DNA of 64,000 nucleotides from an uncultured Pelagibacteraceae bacterium (GTDB lineage: Bacteria > Pseudomonadota > Alphaproteobacteria > Pelagibacterales > Pelagibacteraceae). The notes below the pieces were generated by a model. That model saw nothing but the letters and a program-made list of their open reading frames with translations, was not told the DNA's origin and ran no database searches. This document shows, one piece after another, positions 26,024-57,055 of the stretch (position 1 is its first letter; each line of letters begins with the position of its first letter). The stretch spans positions 1-64,000 of the forward strand of contig CACDLE010000001.1 of NCBI GenBank assembly GCA_902553555.1, in the 5' to 3' direction. Position numbers and translations under genes: made by a program.

Positions 26024-27016
26024 TTATAATACGTCTCTTGTTAATTTTTCTAGTAAATTAATATGATCATTGCCATCGTTTAAACATGGAACTACATCAA
26101 AGTTTTTTCCACCTGATTTCAGAAAGCTTTCCTTTCCTTGTATAGAGATTTCTTCTAGTGTTTCTACACAGTCAGATGAAAATCCTGGACAGATTACAAG
26201 AACATTTTTTTTACCTTCGCTGGGTAAACGCTCTAGGGTTTTATCAGTATAAGGTTTAAGCCAAGCCTCTGGTCCAAATCTTGATTGGAAAGTCGTTATT
26301 ATTTCGATATCTTTAAATTGTTCTCTGAGTAATCTAGATGTTTTGTGACAATAACAATGGTAAGGATCTCCTTTGTTAAAATACTTTTGGGGTATTCCAT
26401 GGTATGATGCAACAATTATATCTGGTCTCCAACTCAATGCACTAATTTTTTTGCTGAGACTATTGTTCAAAGCTTTTATGTAAAGTGGTTCTGACTCATA
26501 GTGTGGTATTATTTGCAGACTAGGTTGCCACCTCATTTCCATTAGTGTTCTAAAAACCTCATCACAAACCGTTGCGGTCGTTGCAGCTGCATACTGTGGG
26601 TAAAGGGGCAAAACAATTAACTTTTCGCATCCTGCATTATGTAATTTACTTATTTTACTTTTTATACTTGGATTTCCATACCTCATTGCATAGTCCACTA
26701 TTAAATCTTTACTGCTAATTCTATCTAAAAGCTTCTTTGTTTGCATGATCGTGTAATATCTAAGAGGTGACATGTTTTCTTTTTTCATCCAAATTTCTTT
26801 ATAGGCTTTTGCGGTCTTAGATGGTCTTAAATTGAGAATGAAAACATTTAAAATTATCTGCCAAATAAAAGGGTTTAACTCTATAACTCTCCTGTCAGAA
26901 AGGAACTCTTTTAAGTATTTTCTGATATCTAGCCAATCAGTCGAGTCTGGTGTGCCTAAATTTATTAATAGAACACCAGTTTTACCAAAATTAACTTTTG
27001 GATGATCTTCTGTCAT
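26024..27016 (-). CDS. hemH: Ferrochelatase
   Basis: VLLINLGTPDS; MRYGNPSI; VLPLYPQYAAATTATV; ASYHGIPQKY; TFQSRFGPEAWLKPYTD. Confidence 0.97.
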   Translation of the reverse strand: MTEDHPKVNFGKTGVLLINLGTPDSTDWLDIRKYLKEFLSDRRVIELNPFIWQIILNVFILNLRPSKTAKAYKEIWMKKENMSPLRYYTIMQTKKLLDRISSKDLIVDYAMRYGNPSIKSKISKLHNAGCEKLIVLPLYPQYAAATTATVCDEVFRTLMEMRWQPSLQIIPHYESEPLYIKALNNSLSKKISALSWRPDIIVASYHGIPQKYFNKGDPYHCYCHKTSRLLREQFKDIEIITTFQSRFGPEAWLKPYTDKTLERLPSEGKKNVLVICPGFSSDCVETLEEISIQGKESFLKSGGKNFDVVPCLNDGNDHINLLEKLTRDVL

Positions 27017-28023
27017 TTGTAATTAATAACTTTCTCAACTACTTTTTTTATCATATCTGGATCTGTATTTGGCAAGATACCATGTCCTAGATTAAATATG
27101 TATGCGTTATTTTTAAAAATATCTAAATATTTTTCTACTTCTTTCATAACGTCGTCTTCGTTTCTAAGCAAAATTTTTGGGCTCATGCCTCCTTGAATAC
27201 ACACATTTTTGAGATTGTTTTTGGCCCAAATGGGATCAAGATCATAATCAATGCTGATGCCATCTGGCAAAACTATATCGATAAAGTTTTTATAGTTAAT
27301 TCCTATTCCTTTTGGAAAACAAATCGACGGCAAATTTATGTGTCTTGAATAATTAACTATTTTAGAATTGGGCATATAACAGAACTTTTTTAGATTATCA
27401 TTTTTTAATAATCCAGCCCAAGAGTCAAAAATCTGCACAGCATCTGCACCTGCCTCTTTTTGAGATCTTATATGCAAATTAATTACATGTATTAATTTAT
27501 TAATTAATTCCTCGATATTATTTTGACTTTTTTTAAACGACTCAAGGTTAAGTTTATTTTCGTTGGTTTTCAAATTCAACATATATGCCAATAGCGTCCA
27601 TGGTGCGCCAACAAATGAGATTAATGCTTTATCTTTTCTTAATTTTTTTCTGGTAATTGCGATTGCGTCATAGACCGGTCTAAGTTTTTTTAGAAATTCT
27701 TGGTCTTTTATATTCAATACATTTTTAACATTAAGTTTTTCTAATATTGGCCCTTCTCCTTTAACAAAATTAACTTCTTGGCCTAATGCGTGAGGAATTA
27801 TTAAAATATCAGAAAAAATAATAGCGGCATCTAGATCGAATCTTTTAATTGGTTGTAGAGTGATTTCTGAACTTAGCTCGCTATTTAAACATAATTTAAT
27901 AAAATTTTTATTTTGTGATCTGATCTTATTAAATTCAGGTAAATATCTTCCCGCTTGTCTCATAAACCAGACTGGTTTAAAAGAAGATTCTTTCTTAATT
28001 AAACATTTTATAAATCTATTCAT
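27013..28023 (-). CDS. hemE: Uroporphyrinogen decarboxylase
   Basis: PVWFMRQAGRYLPEF; AIIFSDILIIPHALG; FVGAPWTLLAYML; NLGHGILPNTDP. Confidence 0.97.
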   Translation of the reverse strand: MNRFIKCLIKKESSFKPVWFMRQAGRYLPEFNKIRSQNKNFIKLCLNSELSSEITLQPIKRFDLDAAIIFSDILIIPHALGQEVNFVKGEGPILEKLNVKNVLNIKDQEFLKKLRPVYDAIAITRKKLRKDKALISFVGAPWTLLAYMLNLKTNENKLNLESFKKSQNNIEELINKLIHVINLHIRSQKEAGADAVQIFDSWAGLLKNDNLKKFCYMPNSKIVNYSRHINLPSICFPKGIGINYKNFIDIVLPDGISIDYDLDPIWAKNNLKNVCIQGGMSPKILLRNEDDVMKEVEKYLDIFKNNAYIFNLGHGILPNTDPDMIKKVVEKVINYK

Positions 28024-28307
28024 TAAATAAATATTATATTAATTATTATAGTTATTGTAGTAGGGCTTGTTGTTATTGATAATAAATATTTATACATTGA
28101 TATAAACACTTTACTAACAATCTTAATCTTAATTTTATCCCCAAAAAACAGCTATCTATCTGATATATTAACAATTATTGATTTTTATGCATAAAATACT
28201 CAACAATGAACAAATTGTAAAAAAGATGTTAATTATTGTGAACGAATAATATAAATTAAAAATTTACATTCAAAACTTTTGCTTATTAAGAAGATATTAA
28301 CAGGATT
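28024..28307. other. Candidate chromosomal replication origin (oriC)
   Basis: 284-bp AT-rich gap at a strand switch next to hemE; TTATCCCCA (28135-28143, one mismatch to DnaA box); palindrome TTTTATGCATAAAA; four same-strand TTATTG. Confidence 0.5.
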
Positions 28308-29129
28308 ATGAACGAAAAATACAATGTAATATTGATCTCCGATTCAACTGGAGAGACACTGGATAGAATTTTTCTATCATTGAAATCTCAATTTAAAAAT
28401 TTTGATTATGAAAAAAAGGAATTTGTTTTTGTAAGAACGGAGCAGCAAGTAGACAAAATCATCAAAGAGGGCATGGAAAAAAGCAATCCCATCATCCTTT
28501 ATACAATTGTGGAAAACAAATTAGCAAAATATTTATCCAAGAAAAGCGGTGAAAATAAAATACCGTGTTTTGGAGTACTAGGTAGTTTGATATTAGATTT
28601 TTCCAAACTTTTAAATCAAAGAGCAATACACAAACCAAGCGCACAACATGTTTTGGATGAAGATTATTATAAAAGAATAGAAGCCATACAATTTACAATG
28701 TCCCACGACGATGGAAAAAAAACAGAAGATATAAAAAATTCTGATGTAATACTATTGGGTGTAAGTAGAACAAGCAAAACCCCCACATCTATTTATCTTG
28801 CTAACAGAGGCTACAAAACTACCAATATCCCTTTGGTCCCCAACCAGAATTTACCAGAAATTCTCACTGCAAACGGAGCAGATTTGTGCGTTATCGGGCT
28901 TTATGCTGATCCTAACAGACTATCGGATATCAGGAGAAATCGTATAGCAATAATGAATGAAAACAGACTTCCTAACTACACAGACATCGAGTCGATTAAA
29001 AAAGAAATTGAAGAATCAAAAAAACTTTTCAAAAACTACAATTGGCCGACAATAGACGTAACTAGAAAATCAGTTGAGGAAACTGCCGCCTCAATTATAA
29101 AAATTATTGAGATTAAAAAAAGCAGATGA
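28308..29129 (+). CDS. Pyruvate, phosphate dikinase regulatory protein (kinase/phosphotransferase, DUF299)
   Basis: VILISDSTGETLD; LLGVSRTSKTPTSIYLANRGYKTTNIPLVP; GLYADPNRLSDIRRNR. Confidence 0.95.
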   Translation: MNEKYNVILISDSTGETLDRIFLSLKSQFKNFDYEKKEFVFVRTEQQVDKIIKEGMEKSNPIILYTIVENKLAKYLSKKSGENKIPCFGVLGSLILDFSKLLNQRAIHKPSAQHVLDEDYYKRIEAIQFTMSHDDGKKTEDIKNSDVILLGVSRTSKTPTSIYLANRGYKTTNIPLVPNQNLPEILTANGADLCVIGLYADPNRLSDIRRNRIAIMNENRLPNYTDIESIKKEIEESKKLFKNYNWPTIDVTRKSVEETAASIIKIIEIKKSR

Positions 29130-38470: not shown

Positions 38471-38755
38471 ATGCTTAAAAATTTGGAAGATTTAATAAAA
38501 ACGATTAGAGATCGAAAAAATTCATCCTCTGATAAGTCTTATACAAATAAACTATTAAATGACAAAAATTTATCTGTTTCTAAAGTGAAGGAAGAGGTGG
38601 CTGAGCTGATCGAAGCTGTGGAAAAAAATACAAATAAAATTCACGAAAGCGCTGATGTGATATATCATCTTTTAGTATACTTAGAAGCTAATAACATTAA
38701 AATTGAAGATGTTATGAAAGAGTTAGAAAAAAGGAAAAATAATGCCTTACGATAA
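38471..38755 (+). CDS. hisE: Phosphoribosyl-ATP pyrophosphatase
   Basis: KVKEEVAELIEAVEKN...HESADVIYHLLVYLE. Confidence 0.93.
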   Translation: MLKNLEDLIKTIRDRKNSSSDKSYTNKLLNDKNLSVSKVKEEVAELIEAVEKNTNKIHESADVIYHLLVYLEANNIKIEDVMKELEKRKNNALR

Positions 38756-39098
38756 AAATAATATTTTTGCAAAGATTATCAGAGGAGAAATACCCTGTAA
38801 AAAAATTTTTGAAAATGATCATGTTTTGTCATTTCACGATATAAATCCGCAAAAAAAAATTCATGCATTAGTAATTCCCAAGGGTGAATATGTGGATCTA
38901 GATGATTTTAATAAGAAGGCAAGTGAAAAGGAAATAATTGAATTACATAAAGCAATTAGTTATGTCTCGAGCTTATTAGGAGTCACAAACAAAGGTTATA
39001 GAGTTCTTTCGAATATTGGACTTGACGGAGGTCAAGAAGTTCCTCACCTTCACTTCCACATATTTGCTGGTGAAAAAATGGGAAAGATGGTTGTTTAA
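38742..39098 (+). CDS. HIT family (HinT-like) protein
   Basis: NIFAKIIRGEIPCKKIFENDHVLSFHDINPQ; GQEVPHLHFHIFAGEKMG. Confidence 0.95.
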   Translation: MPYDKNNIFAKIIRGEIPCKKIFENDHVLSFHDINPQKKIHALVIPKGEYVDLDDFNKKASEKEIIELHKAISYVSSLLGVTNKGYRVLSNIGLDGGQEVPHLHFHIFAGEKMGKMVV

Positions 39099-39099
39099 T

Positions 39100-44781: not shown

Positions 44782-46650
44782 ATGGCTAAAGAAAGCTATG
44801 ATATTGTAGTTATAGGTGGTGGACATGCTGGATGTGAGGCTGCTGCAGCTTCTGCTAGAATGGGCGTCAATACTGCACTTTTTACACATAAAATTGAGAC
44901 TATTGGGGAGATGTCCTGCAATCCAGCCATAGGAGGACTTGGTAAAGGGCATTTGGTTCGAGAAATTGATGCGCTAGACGGTGTAATGGGAGTTGTTTCT
45001 GACAAATCAGGTATTCAGTTTCGATTATTGAATAGAAGTAGAGGTCCAGCAGTTAGAGGACCACGAACACAATCCGACAGAGCACTTTACAAAAAGCACA
45101 TGCAAAAAATCTTACTAAATTATAAAAACTTAACTGTAGTAGCCGACCCTGTAATAAAATTTTTGTTTAATGATAATCAAGTTATAGGTTTCGTATGTCA
45201 AAGTGGGAAGGAGATAAGATGTAAGGAACTTATTTTGACGACTGGAACATTTTTAAACGGTCTAATCCATATAGGTGAAACACAAATCCCAGCAGGAAGA
45301 TATGACGAAAAACCATCTACTGGACTAAGCGAACAACTTGCTAGATTTAAAATGAAAATAGGTAGACTTAAAACTGGCACTCCTCCTAGGTTGGACGGCT
45401 CAACAATTAATTATGACGATCTAGAAATGCAGCCCGCTGATGATAATCCTTACTTCTTTTCTTTTTTAACAACTAAATTAGAGAACAAACAAATTTCATG
45501 TGGCATGACATATACAAATGATGAAGTTCATAAAATTATTAGTGATAATATTAATAGGAGTGCTATGTACTCTGGCAACATCAAAGGTGTCGGACCTAGA
45601 TATTGTCCCTCGATAGAAGATAAGATTGTAAAGTTTAAAGAAAAACACAAACATCAAATTTTTTTAGAACCCGAAGGATTAAATGACAATACTGTTTACC
45701 CAAATGGTATATCTACTTCTTTACCAGAAGAAGTCCAACTTAAAATATTAAGTAAAATCAAGGGTTTAGAGGGTGTTAGAATGAAAAGAGCAGGGTATGC
45801 TATAGAGTATGATTATGTAGATCCTAGGGAGCTAAATCCAACGCTTGAAACTAAAAAAATTAAATCTTTATTTTTAGCGGGACAAATAAATGGGACTACT
45901 GGGTATGAAGAAGCAGCTGCTCAGGGGTTAATTGCGGGTATTAATGCGGCGCTAAAAATTTTAAAAAAAGAAGAATTTATTTTAGACAGATCGGAGTCAT
46001 ACATTGGAGTAATGATCGATGATCTAATTACGAAAGGTGTTTCTGAACCATATCGTATGTTTACTTCTAGAGCCGAATATAGATTATCTTTAAGAGCTGA
46101 TAATGCAGATCAAAGATTAACTCCATCAGGTATAAAAATAAATTGTGTGGGTAAAAACAGATCAAAGGTATTTTTAGATAAACAAAAAAAATTAACAAGC
46201 ATTTTAGATTATCTTAAATCAAATTTTATATCTCCAAATGAGGCAAGTAAGTATGAAATAAAAATTGCTCAAGATGGCGTCAAAAGATCCGGTATAGAGT
46301 TAATGGCTCAGCGAAATCTAAATATGGCAAAACTAAGGCAGATATGGCCTATGCTACCATCGTTTGGTACTGACTTAGATGACCAAGTTGAAATGGATGC
46401 TCATTACTCTGGCTACCTCAAAAGACAGTCTCATGATATAGCTGCATTTAAAAAAGATGAAGGTATTAAAATACCTGATAAGATTGATTACGATATATTT
46501 AGTGGATTATCTAACGAGATTAAATCTAAGTTGAAGACAATAAAGCCTAAAACTTTAGGCCAAGCCTTAAGAATTGATGGTGTTACTCCAGCTGCAGCTA
46601 TAATATTATTAGGATATATCAAATCTACAAAGAAAAGGGCCTCAGCTTGA
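44782..46650 (+). CDS. mnmG: tRNA uridine-5-carboxymethylaminomethyl(34) synthesis enzyme MnmG
   Basis: [62 protein letters not shown]. Confidence 0.98.
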
Positions 46651-47273
46651 TAAGTGAGACCAATGTAAAAAAAATACTTTTTGAAAATCTTAAATTTGAT
46701 AAGCTTAAAATAAAAAAATTAGACGATTTTGTCAAAAATCTTCTTATTTTTAATAAAAAACATAATTTAATATCAAAGAAAACCGAAAAATCAATTTGGG
46801 ATAGACATATTCTTGATAGTGCCCAATTAGTGAAATTTATTAATCCCAAAATTTGTAATAGTATAGCAGATTTAGGTACTGGGGGAGGTTTTCCAGGTAT
46901 TATTTTAGCTATCTTTTTTAATAATTTCAATTTTCACGTGAAACTTTATGAAAAGTCACCTTTAAAGTGCTTATTTCTTAATGATATCGTCAATATAATT
47001 AAAATTAATGCGATAATTATTAATAATGATATAAATAATGAAAAAATTGACTCAAACTATGTTGTTTGTAGAGCATTTAAGAAAATACCCCAAATATTGA
47101 ATATTTCACGTGAAAAATGCATTAAAAGGCATAAACTAATACTAATGAGAGGAAGAAGTGCACAAGAAGAGCTAAAAAAAGCTTTTAAGGAACAAAATTA
47201 TAGGTATAGATTAGAAAAAAGCATAACAGATAGTGAGTCGAAGATAGTTATTATCGATGTAAAGAAAAAATGA
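46647..47273 (+). CDS. rsmG: 16S rRNA m7G527 methyltransferase RsmG
   Basis: [41 protein letters not shown]; gidA-gidB-parAB order. Confidence 0.94.
46930..46945. promoter_or_regulatory. parS-like ParB-binding palindrome (ATTTTCACGTGAAACT)
   Basis: 13/16 match to TGTTTCACGTGAAACA; inside rsmG. Confidence 0.72.
47102..47117. promoter_or_regulatory. parS-like ParB-binding palindrome (TATTTCACGTGAAAAA)
   Basis: 14/16 match to TGTTTCACGTGAAACA; inside rsmG, in a different codon phase from the first site. Confidence 0.75.
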
Positions 47274-48067
47274 GAAAGCCAAACATAATTGCTGTGATAA
47301 ATCAAAAGGGTGGAGTAGGCAAAACCACAACAGTTATAAATTTGGCAGCATCACTGTCCATTATGGGTCAAAATAATTTAATAATAGATTTAGACCCACA
47401 AGGTAATGCTACCACGGGATTAGGCAAATCTAATAATGATGACGAGAACAACATTTATAAATTATTAATTAAAGAAATTGAATTAAACAATGCATTACAA
47501 ACTACAGCTTTTGAAAAATTAGATTTAATAGGTTCAAATGTTAACTTGTCTGGTTTAGAAGTTGAAACCGCTAACGAGGAAAATCGAGCCTTTATCCTGA
47601 AAGAAATCTTGGAAAAAGATTCTAATTTAATTAGTAAGTACAATAATATTTTTATAGATTGTCCACCATCTTTAAGTCTGCTAACAATTATGGCTCTAGT
47701 TTCTTCACATGAAATTTTAGTTCCATTGCAAACTGAATTCTTTGCTTTGGAAGGTATAACGCAACTTGTCAAAACAATAGATAGAATTAAGGTTAATTTG
47801 AATCCTACTTTAAATGTAAGAGGAATTTTACTTACCATGTTTGATAAGAGAAACAAACTATCATCACAAGTAGATAAGGAAGCTAGAAATTATTTTAAAG
47901 AAAAGGTTTACGCATCAGTGATACCAAGAAATGTAAGATTGTCAGAAGCCCCATCACATGGTCAACCATGCGTAACTTACGATAAATCATGTAGTGGAAG
48001 TAAAGCTTATTTAAAATTAGCAAAAGAATTTATTATTCAAAAAGATAACTTTGGTAGTGCCGCGTGA
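47270..48067 (+). CDS. parA: Chromosome partitioning ATPase ParA
   Basis: IIAVINQKGGVGKTTTVINLAASL; LIDLDPQGNATTGLG; IDCPPSLSLLTI. Confidence 0.97.
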   Translation: MRKPNIIAVINQKGGVGKTTTVINLAASLSIMGQNNLIIDLDPQGNATTGLGKSNNDDENNIYKLLIKEIELNNALQTTAFEKLDLIGSNVNLSGLEVETANEENRAFILKEILEKDSNLISKYNNIFIDCPPSLSLLTIMALVSSHEILVPLQTEFFALEGITQLVKTIDRIKVNLNPTLNVRGILLTMFDKRNKLSSQVDKEARNYFKEKVYASVIPRNVRLSEAPSHGQPCVTYDKSCSGSKAYLKLAKEFIIQKDNFGSAA

Positions 48068-48918
48068 ATTCAAAAAAAAAAGGCTTAGGAAAAGGTTTGT
48101 CCGCACTGTTTGGTGACCAAAAAAAAGACCAAAATACTAATAAAAAGGCGGAGAATTTAACGAAAGCTCTGATTGGAGATTTAGCTCGTAATAAATATCA
48201 ACCAAGGACAATTTTCGACGACGAGAAACTAAAAGAACTTTCTGCCTCAATAAAAAAAAATGGTATTATACAGCCAATAGCAGTAAGAAAAAGCAAATCA
48301 TCAAAAGAGACATATGAAATAGTTGCTGGCGAAAGAAGATGGCTTGCTGCACAAAAAGCAGGATTGCATGAAGTACCTATAACTATATTAGATCTCAACG
48401 ATAGTGAGACATTAGAAGTAGCCATAGTTGAAAACATTCAGAGGGAAGATCTAAATATTATAGAGGAAGCGAAAGGTTATAAAAGATTACACGAAGAATT
48501 TGGGTATGATCAAGATAAGATAGCTAAGTTCATGTCTAAAAGTAGAAGTCATGTAAGCAATACTTTAAGGTTATTAAATTTACCTAAAGATATTATATCT
48601 ATGTTAGAACAAGGAGAGCTCACAGCAGGCCAGGCTCGTCCTCTTATAGGGATGCCTAATGCTTCCTCTATTGCTGAAGAAATTGTTGCAAAAAAACTAT
48701 CTGCTAGATCGATTGAAAATTTAAAAAAAAGAAAAGAGAAATCTTTTACTGTTGATCCAAATATATTTGAAGTACAACGCGAACTTGAAAGGGTATTGGG
48801 TTATCGTATTCAAATTGTAAATAAAAAAAATAATTCAGGAAAGCTAGTCGTTGAGTATAAAAATTTAGACCAATTGGAATATATTTCAAATTTACTCAAA
48901 AATAAGTCCAAGTCGTAG
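48064..48918 (+). CDS. parB: Chromosome partitioning protein ParB
   Basis: GLGKGLSALFGD; KYQPRTIFDDEKLKELSASIKKNGIIQPIAVR; VAGERRWLAAQKAGL; ENIQREDLN. Confidence 0.97.
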   Translation: MNSKKKGLGKGLSALFGDQKKDQNTNKKAENLTKALIGDLARNKYQPRTIFDDEKLKELSASIKKNGIIQPIAVRKSKSSKETYEIVAGERRWLAAQKAGLHEVPITILDLNDSETLEVAIVENIQREDLNIIEEAKGYKRLHEEFGYDQDKIAKFMSKSRSHVSNTLRLLNLPKDIISMLEQGELTAGQARPLIGMPNASSIAEEIVAKKLSARSIENLKKRKEKSFTVDPNIFEVQRELERVLGYRIQIVNKKNNSGKLVVEYKNLDQLEYISNLLKNKSKS

Positions 48919-55309: not shown

Positions 55310-55942
55310 ATGAATATAATAGACAGTTTTAATCAAATTAAACAGAAAATTGAAAATTCTAGAACAGAAATTATTGCTGTCAGTAAAACTTTCACTCTAG
55401 ACCATATTAAGCCTTTAATACAGCACGGCCATAAACATTTTGGTGAAAATAAAGTTCAAGAGGCCGAGAAAAAATGGAAAAACATTAAAAGTTCAAATAA
55501 TATAAAACTTCACATGATAGGATCATTGCAATCTAATAAGGCCAAAAAAGCAATTGAACTATTTGATTATATTCATTCTCTAGATAGCGAAAAACTTGCA
55601 AAAGAATTAGATAAAAGGGAAAAGCAATTAAAAAAAAAATTAAGTTATTTTATACAAGTGAATTTAGGATCAGAGGAACAAAAAGGTGGAATAGAAATTG
55701 ATAATTTAGATAATTTTTTTAAATTTGTAACAAAAGAAACAAGTTTATCCGTCATTGGTTTGATGGCCATTCCGCCGAATGACACTAATTATGAAAGATA
55801 CTTCTCGCAAATATCAAATTTGAATAAAAAATTTGAATTTAATCAATTGAGCATTGGAATGTCGAATGATTACATGACGGCTATAAAGTATGGCGCATCA
55901 TTTGTGAGAATAGGGAGCGCTATTTTTGGTCCTAGATCCTAA
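55310..55942 (+). CDS. YggS family PLP-binding protein
   Basis: IIAVSKTF; HFGENKVQEAEKKW; HMIGSLQSNKAKKAI; FIQVNLGSEEQKGG; GLMAIPP; SIGMSNDYMTAIKYGASFVRIGSAIFG. Confidence 0.95.
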   Translation: MNIIDSFNQIKQKIENSRTEIIAVSKTFTLDHIKPLIQHGHKHFGENKVQEAEKKWKNIKSSNNIKLHMIGSLQSNKAKKAIELFDYIHSLDSEKLAKELDKREKQLKKKLSYFIQVNLGSEEQKGGIEIDNLDNFFKFVTKETSLSVIGLMAIPPNDTNYERYFSQISNLNKKFEFNQLSIGMSNDYMTAIKYGASFVRIGSAIFGPRS

Positions 55943-56427
55943 GATATTGTTATATAGCTTTTCTTAGTAATGCTTGCAATTATATCTATGATGTTTTTTT
56001 TTGAGACAGCAATACATCCTAATGTAGGAGAATAATTTCTTTTTGCAACATGCATGAAAATTGCACTCCCTTTATTTTTTTTTGTTGGATTAATATTATA
56101 ATTAATAACCACTATAATATCGTAAATGTTATTTGATTTATAAAGTTTTTCGGCTTTATATTTAAATGGAAGTTTTACAAATCTATTATATTTTTTAGAC
56201 CTGATATCGTCGCACCATCCAAAATCTTTTTTGATAGGTATAGTTTTTAATCTTGATTTTATTTTTACTCTGTCTTTCCTATAGAATATGTATTTTAGTT
56301 TAAATTTACCTTTGGGTGTACATTTATCCCCTTCTTTTTTTTTATTGGTAATTCCTCTTTTACCAATTGCACATTTTACCTTATAATCTTTAAAATAAAG
56401 GCATTTGTTTTTTAAAAGGATATTCAT
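55939..56427 (-). CDS. L,D-transpeptidase (YkuD) family protein
   Basis: KCAIGKRGITNKKKEGDKCTPKGKFKLKYIFYR; GSAIFMHVAKRNYSPTLGCIAVSKK (HxxxxxxxxxGC-type active site); start set at MNILLKNK. Confidence 0.88.
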   Translation of the reverse strand: MNILLKNKCLYFKDYKVKCAIGKRGITNKKKEGDKCTPKGKFKLKYIFYRKDRVKIKSRLKTIPIKKDFGWCDDIRSKKYNRFVKLPFKYKAEKLYKSNNIYDIIVVINYNINPTKKNKGSAIFMHVAKRNYSPTLGCIAVSKKNIIDIIASITKKSYITIS

Positions 56428-57055
56428 GGTTGATAAAAAAAATATCATTTTAGCTATAGGAAATAAAGAATTTAATAAAACCTTAATTGAGTTGAAAGAA
56501 TATTTCAGTTTTACTTTAGAAATATCTGATGATTTTTCAAAAGAGGACCTAAAGAGCAAATATCATGGCTATATAATTCATGAAGATATTTTTAAAAATC
56601 CAAATTTAAATAGCATACTCGATGACAACACATCAAATAAAGTAATTTGTTATGAGAGAGATAACAAAATTATCAAAAGAGATTACGAAAAGATTTATTT
56701 ACCAGCTTCATTGGAGCATATAAACACAATAGTCATTAATAATATTATTAAAAAAAAATTTAAATATAATTCTTCAGTAAAAGTTTTAGATTATATATTA
56801 GACAAAAATTTAAGAAAATTAATGAAAGATCAAAAATCATTAGAGTTAACAGAAAAGGAAATTGATTTAATATTACTCTTAAGCAAGAATTTTTTTACAA
56901 AAAAAAAGGAGATCTTATCTAGGATTTGGAACTATTCAGACGAAGCAGATACCCATACTGTTGAAACACATATTTATAGATTGAGAAAAAAGGTTAAAAA
57001 AATATTTGATGATGAAACTTTCATTAAAAATGAAAAAGAAGGTTATAAAATTTGA
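56426..57055 (+). CDS. OmpR-type winged-helix DNA-binding protein with degenerate receiver-like N-terminus
   Basis: LTEKEIDLILLLSKN...KKEILSRIWNYSDEADTHTVETHIYRLRKKV...EGYKI; start set at MVDKKN. Confidence 0.85.
   Translation: MVDKKNIILAIGNKEFNKTLIELKEYFSFTLEISDDFSKEDLKSKYHGYIIHEDIFKNPNLNSILDDNTSNKVICYERDNKIIKRDYEKIYLPASLEHINTIVINNIIKKKFKYNSSVKVLDYILDKNLRKLMKDQKSLELTEKEIDLILLLSKNFFTKKKEILSRIWNYSDEADTHTVETHIYRLRKKVKKIFDDETFIKNEKEGYKI

Follow-up and report, generated by a model that had tools for sequence, protein, structure and literature searches.

An AT-rich gap between hemE and the PPDK regulator gene as the probable chromosomal replication origin of an uncultured Pelagibacteraceae bacterium

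The non-coding gap of 284 bp between hemE and the gene for the PPDK regulator (PPSR) is very probably the chromosomal replication origin of this bacterium, inherited in place from the alphaproteobacterial ancestor, as judged from its position and from comparative sequence evidence. A sequence-only reading of the same DNA had already proposed this, and the proposal is supported by synteny with verified origins, by the conservation of the gap and its persistence past changes of its flanks, by a nearby parABS system and by switches in strand bias. As an origin it is of the known hemE-COG1806 kind, and its interest lies in the drifted DnaA sites.

The window, meaning the whole stretch of 64,000 nucleotides that was analysed, consists of bases 1-64000 of contig C1 (217,386 bp), from an assembly of 715,560 bp in 19 contigs that is 63% complete. 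The gap occupies positions 28024-28307, with no strand assigned. Its AT content exceeds the genome average, at 81% compared with 70% for the window (19.0% versus 30.1% GC). It is flanked on the left by hemE (27013-28023, - strand; NCBIfam TIGR01464 above cut-off) and on the right by PPSR (28308-29129, + strand; NCBIfam NF003742 above cut-off, and PF03618), the two genes diverging from the gap. PF03618 is DUF299, the domain of COG1806 (PMC1914354), and the gap thus sits between hemE and COG1806. In phage records PPSR had distant matches only, which were uninformative. The statement that the origin lies beside hemE in Caulobacter and Rickettsia holds for this same gene pair: hemE and COG1806 flank the Caulobacter origin, which was identified by experiment, and also the sites predicted as origins in Rickettsia (PMC1914354).

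All letters and coordinates that had been given for the gap and its motifs were correct on re-checking, and neither tRNA nor Rfam RNA was found within the 284 bp. The description of the gap as the longest clean one in the window stands in that it is the longest stretch without open reading frames of at least 60 aa, with one exception at 55943-56404, which falls within a YkuD-like frame of the opposite strand. This YkuD-like gene (55939-56559, - strand) adjoins, at 56405-57055, a predicted OmpR-type protein, for which the family matches lie mostly in the DNA-binding half at the C-terminus.

Conservation among relatives, on which the proposal had been made to depend, was found in more than 100 relatives and at three taxonomic depths. 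The hemE-adjacent gap measures 261-297 bp in 55 loci of the window's family, comprising 29 loci of the window's genus (265-284 bp, with nearly invariant blocks in the alignment) and 26 further loci (261-297 bp), 20 of which belong to seven other genera. At the level of the class, 30 loci were chosen only for the presence of PPSR, and hemE was upstream in all 30, across a gap of 329-679 bp in 28 of them and a longer one in two. The gene order to the right of the gap, PPSR-maf-aroE-coaE-dnaQ, is also that of Caulobacter. PPSR was missing from all 24 sister-family genomes tested, and there a gap of 252-281 bp was found between hemE and maf in 21 loci (maf named by reading). The left flank can change as well: the complete genome G172 has rho in place of hemE abutting a gap of 354 bp, in which the element TATTAGGTCATGTT is retained, and its sole hemE match, with 31% identity, lies 577 kb away. 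Loss of the hemE beside PPSR was observed as a trait of genus g5, with hemE copies of 31-32% identity far away (G172:C1 718088-719050 and G236:C1 412369-413331), which are perhaps replacements by a foreign copy. Finally, a second complete genome, G253 (L261, C1 about 328-339 kb), carries a core of about 11 kb, rho-hemH-hemE-gap-PPSR-aroE-dnaQ-hslU-hisB, whose orientation is the reverse of that in the window and whose flanks (lon...ccmC and mnmE...dnaK) are unchanged: an inversion in place.

These rearrangements bear on whether the gap might be no more than a long region of promoters for the divergent genes hemE and PPSR, with the origin elsewhere. Both neighbours do point away from the gap, and the conserved blocks close to the two start codons might act as promoters. 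However, the gap is kept despite the exchange of hemE for rho, the loss of PPSR and the inversion of the core, and a plain hemE/PPSR promoter region is therefore no explanation for it. The hemE-proximal element likewise survives the changes from hemE to rho and from PPSR to maf, the position of the verified alphaproteobacterial origin has the same kinds of element and box, and strand switches are found close by in complete genomes, all of which makes a mere promoter region very unlikely indeed. A BLAST ranking of intergenic conservation placed the gap 10th of 15 and 7th of 13, a ranking confounded by missed short genes. One such gene is a HIT-family-like open frame on the + strand of the window (about 38740-39099, about 118 aa, with an HLHFH motif); a TTG ORF at 39016 overlaps it in another frame, and the true start of that ORF is probably later.

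Strand bias was analysed in sampled stretches of the two complete relatives. For G172, of which 720 of 1,211 kb were sampled, two-breakpoint fits gave one pair of switches, in GC skew and in gene strand, at 160 and 168 kb and the opposite pair at 772-774 kb, the gap being at 141.5 kb. In G253 the gap is at 335.7 kb, and the sampled stretches cover 400 of 1,309 kb. Both raw GC skew and gene strand have their switches at 291 kb and about 1,050 kb there, and the orientation-corrected four-fold T/A bias switches at 353 kb (F = 100, versus 93 at the gap), a switch that 0 of 150 block permutations reached. A skew minimum far from the locus, which had been named as evidence against the proposal, was thus not seen, the switches lying 18-45 kb off the gap in these two sampled genomes. 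Four of five genomes of the window's genus have their T/A switch 25-28 kb to the right of the gap, and it reaches clear significance in just two of them, G034 and G002. The contig of the window itself presented a change of orientation-corrected four-fold GC skew at the gap, with a terminus-like sign (reached by 6 of 150 permutations). A search for dif using a gammaproteobacterial-type pattern returned nothing in the family. The skew signals bracket the gap, at a resolution no better than about 45 kb.

Given such offsets, an origin outside the gap yet in the same 60-kb neighbourhood has to be considered, such as the surroundings of parAB/leuS-adk or the ccmC side. Such a position would suit the T/A switch, which is at +25 to +28 kb in three genomes (G034, G002 and G036) and at +18 kb in G253. 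In both cases it falls between parB or leuS and adk, despite the inverted core of G253. The switches of GC skew and gene strand, 20-45 kb from the gap, would also suit it. Against this, the indicators disagree on the side, the G253 bins are all T-rich to the left of the gap and A-rich to the right of it except for the leuS bin, and that neighbourhood yielded no other gap of comparable kind, conserved, AT-rich, non-coding and with DnaA-like sites in repeated copies. We consider this placement very unlikely, and the hemE-PPSR gap itself remains our preferred site.

The cluster mnmE-mnmG-rsmG-parA-parB is typically origin-proximal. It is present in the window at 15-21 kb from the gap and stays close in other genera. 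The genes from mnmG onward occupy 44782-48918 on the + strand, with mnmG starting at 44782, rsmG (named by reading only) at 46647, parA at 47270 and parB at 48064. A parS-like site, TATTTCACGTGAAAAA (47102-47117, no strand), is found within rsmG, just upstream of parA and 19 kb from the gap, and parS-like sites also occur 18-21 kb from PPSR in G016, G017 and G019. Apart from this group at 18-21 kb, the matches from the canonical parS search were weak and scattered.

The statement that no dnaA is adjacent was confirmed, the gap upstream of dnaA being 69-74 kb away; in Caulobacter and Rickettsia, too, dnaA is presumably not directly beside the origin. This upstream gap is itself conserved and AT-rich (96701-96951 of C1, 20% GC), which speaks for an origin there. 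Nevertheless, eight of nine upstream regions were without any DnaA box of at most one mismatch, the single such box being about 1.1 kb away, and the skew switches point elsewhere. We rejected the dnaA-upstream gap because it has essentially no DnaA boxes, and give an origin there a close to negligible probability.

Turning to the content of the hemE-PPSR gap, the elements that matter are the triplets of TAG type next to hemE and the repeats of the octamer TATNAACA, rather than the near-DnaA box and the palindrome to which the sequence-only reading had drawn attention. The chance occurrence of motifs in the gap was assessed with 2000 dinucleotide shuffles. The near-box TTATCCCCA (28135-28143, + strand), with one mismatch to the DnaA box, and the 14-bp palindrome TTTTATGCATAAAA (28183-28196) are both present, but both are at chance level (P = 0.10 and P = 0.14; shuffled sequence yields such a box about one time in ten and such a palindrome about one time in seven) and unconserved in the 29-gap alignment. 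The four TTATTG motifs (28052, 28073, 28175 and 28233) fared better, being above chance at P = 0.0005 in a post hoc test, and two of the four fall within conserved blocks. As for the suggested DNA unwinding element at 28076-28110, the trio-like tract at 28049-28063 is the better-supported unwinding site.

This tract, TAG TTA TTG TAG TAG on the + strand, resembles the DnaA-trios and contains (T[AT]G)x3 with a shuffle P of 0.004. It is followed by a GC-rich spacer, GGCT (28064-28067, + strand), which reads GGCC, GGTC, TGCC or TCCC in relatives and leads from the triplets to a putative degenerate DnaA box on the - strand (28068-28076). The box reads TGTTGTTAT on the + strand and has 3 mismatches to TTATCCACA on the - strand; it is a weak copy recognised by alignment, and the same position beside the triplets reads TGTGGAATT, TGTGAATAA or TGTAGATAA in relatives. 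A T at the join is common to both parts of the element (28049-28076). Two further blocks on the + strand stand out in the 29-gap alignment, TTTATACATTGATATAAACAC at 28089-28109 and TGTTAATTATTGTG at 28227-28240, in which TGTTAATTA.TGT is nearly invariant.

A looser motif, (TNG)x3, occurs on the same strand in 17 of 21 sister-family gaps (0.7 expected) and in 18 of 30 other alphaproteobacterial gaps (2.1 expected), and on the opposite strand in only 2 sister-family gaps and in none of the 30 class-level ones. Examples are TAG TAG TAG TAG TTG - TGCC - TGTGTGTTT from the sister family and TGG TGG TGG TTG - GGCC - TGTGAG from the class-level set. In those other Alphaproteobacteria (L083-L112) the arrangement was observed as T-N-G triplets, often TGG, with a GGCC-like spacer and TGTG, on the hemE side of the gap and on one strand only. 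Within the window's genus (TNG)x3 is found in 4 of 29 gaps, our own gap carrying the stricter (T[AT]G)x3, and it is found in 0 of 20 loci from the family's other genera, where TAT/TAG tracts are visible by eye. With profiles of the element built from other families, the gap was not the top match in any of the contigs scanned; either the matches were mostly G-rich coding sequence or the gap came at rank 28 in its own contig. Inside the family's gaps, the sister-family profile scored best at an offset of 20-24 from hemE in most cases.

The octamer TATNAACA resembles the last eight bases of the DnaA box with the second C changed to A. Our gap holds three copies on the + strand against 0.08 expected (shuffle P = 0.0015): TATAAACA at 28101-28108, and TATTAACA at 28166-28173 and at 28295-28302, the last being 5 bp before the PPSR start and conserved as TTTATTAACA. 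The gap is the single densest TATNAACA window in its own 217-kb contig and in those of G036, G034 and G002. The octamer was picked post hoc, after viewing the alignment; it was present again in 24 of 26 loci retrieved later, although these are relatives of one another and do not count as independent. At the same position the gaps of genus g140 have TTATCTACA, TTATACACA or TTATCCACA, and the sister-genus and sister-family gaps likewise hold TTATCCACA, TTATCTACA or TTATACACA. The TATNAACA repeats are candidate variant DnaA sites. The bacterium's own DnaA retains the RDHTTV motif, and the protein therefore shows no sign of altered specificity.

That canonical boxes would be few had been anticipated, and our gap has a single box with at most one mismatch (P = 0.10), with several such boxes being present in several sister genera; by canonical DnaA-box density the gap is not singled out within its own contig. 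The number of DnaA boxes at the hemE-COG1806 locus ranges from 0 to 9 among the 30 class-level gaps. Canonical boxes are therefore usual rather than defining, and the assignment rests on position and comparative evidence. A consensus scan for IHF sites found none in our gap, 6 of 30 family gaps being positive; with only 3 of 30 class-level gaps positive, this is a weak test. One CtrA-type TTAA-N7-TTAA is located at 28286, and 19 of 30 family gaps have one, in a count uncontrolled for composition. No ctrA orthologue was established here, and ctrA has been reported absent from Pelagibacter (PMC2877005).

If these elements act together, DnaA would bind degenerate sites over the gap, both the box at 28068-28076 and the TATNAACA repeats. 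From there it could spread past the short G/C spacer and reach the TAG/TTG triplets at 28049-28063 as single-stranded DNA. The AT-rich side would open towards hemE, where the helicase would be loaded, and ParB would capture the sister chromosomes at the parS-like site next to parAB, 19 kb away. Perhaps a TATNAACA-type site has largely taken the place of canonical DnaA boxes in this genus while its DnaA motif stayed ordinary. Initiation would then depend on the triplet module together with weak sites, and drift in a streamlined lineage would have produced a minimal origin of low affinity. Taken jointly with a triplet rule that across the Alphaproteobacteria would be T-N-G and not T-A-G, this is a tentative proposal, which we regard as possible rather than probable.

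If the bacterium belongs to SAR11, an assignment based on the sequence-only reading, genome size and GC content, it is among the most abundant cells in the sea. Estimates of growth rate from metagenome coverage depend on a known origin, and the gap would provide a precise anchor that is recognisable in fragmentary genomes, one that tools counting canonical boxes or searching beside dnaA could miss. Moreover, canonical DnaA boxes dwindle from one sister genus to another, whereas position, length and the unwinding-type element stay; with this natural series the needs of a minimal bacterial origin become testable. Among the open papers covered, we found none stating that the SAR11 origin is at hemE.

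Among known systems, the closest in flanking genes and in having an AT-rich intergenic gap are Cori of Caulobacter crescentus, between hemE/CC_3763 and COG1806/CC_0001, and the predicted Rickettsia origins (PMC1914354). The Caulobacter gap is longer, 404 bp versus 284 bp, and has five canonical DnaA boxes, whereas no such array and no IHF site were found in ours. A second comparison is with the basal unwinding system, known from B. subtilis and H. pylori among others, which consists of DnaA boxes, a GC-rich spacer and DnaA-trios, and with which our triplet tract, short GC-rich spacer and DnaA box share order and polarity (PMC8287927, PMC8235120). The published rule asks for at least 3 NAN triplets no more than 16 bp from a DnaA box, which may have up to 2 mismatches. 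Read away from the spacer, our triplets are TAG, TAG, TTG, TTA and TAG, and our box has 3 mismatches; the tract thus mixes TAG with TTG and TTA, and triplets elsewhere in the class are often TGG, whereas the published search requires a middle A. Closer matches to that rule were seen by eye in some relatives, for example L246 and L250. The hemE-maf gap of the sister family (21 genomes), finally, is like ours in position, length (252-281 bp), triplet element and strand, and differs in the loss of PPSR and in having more canonical DnaA boxes.
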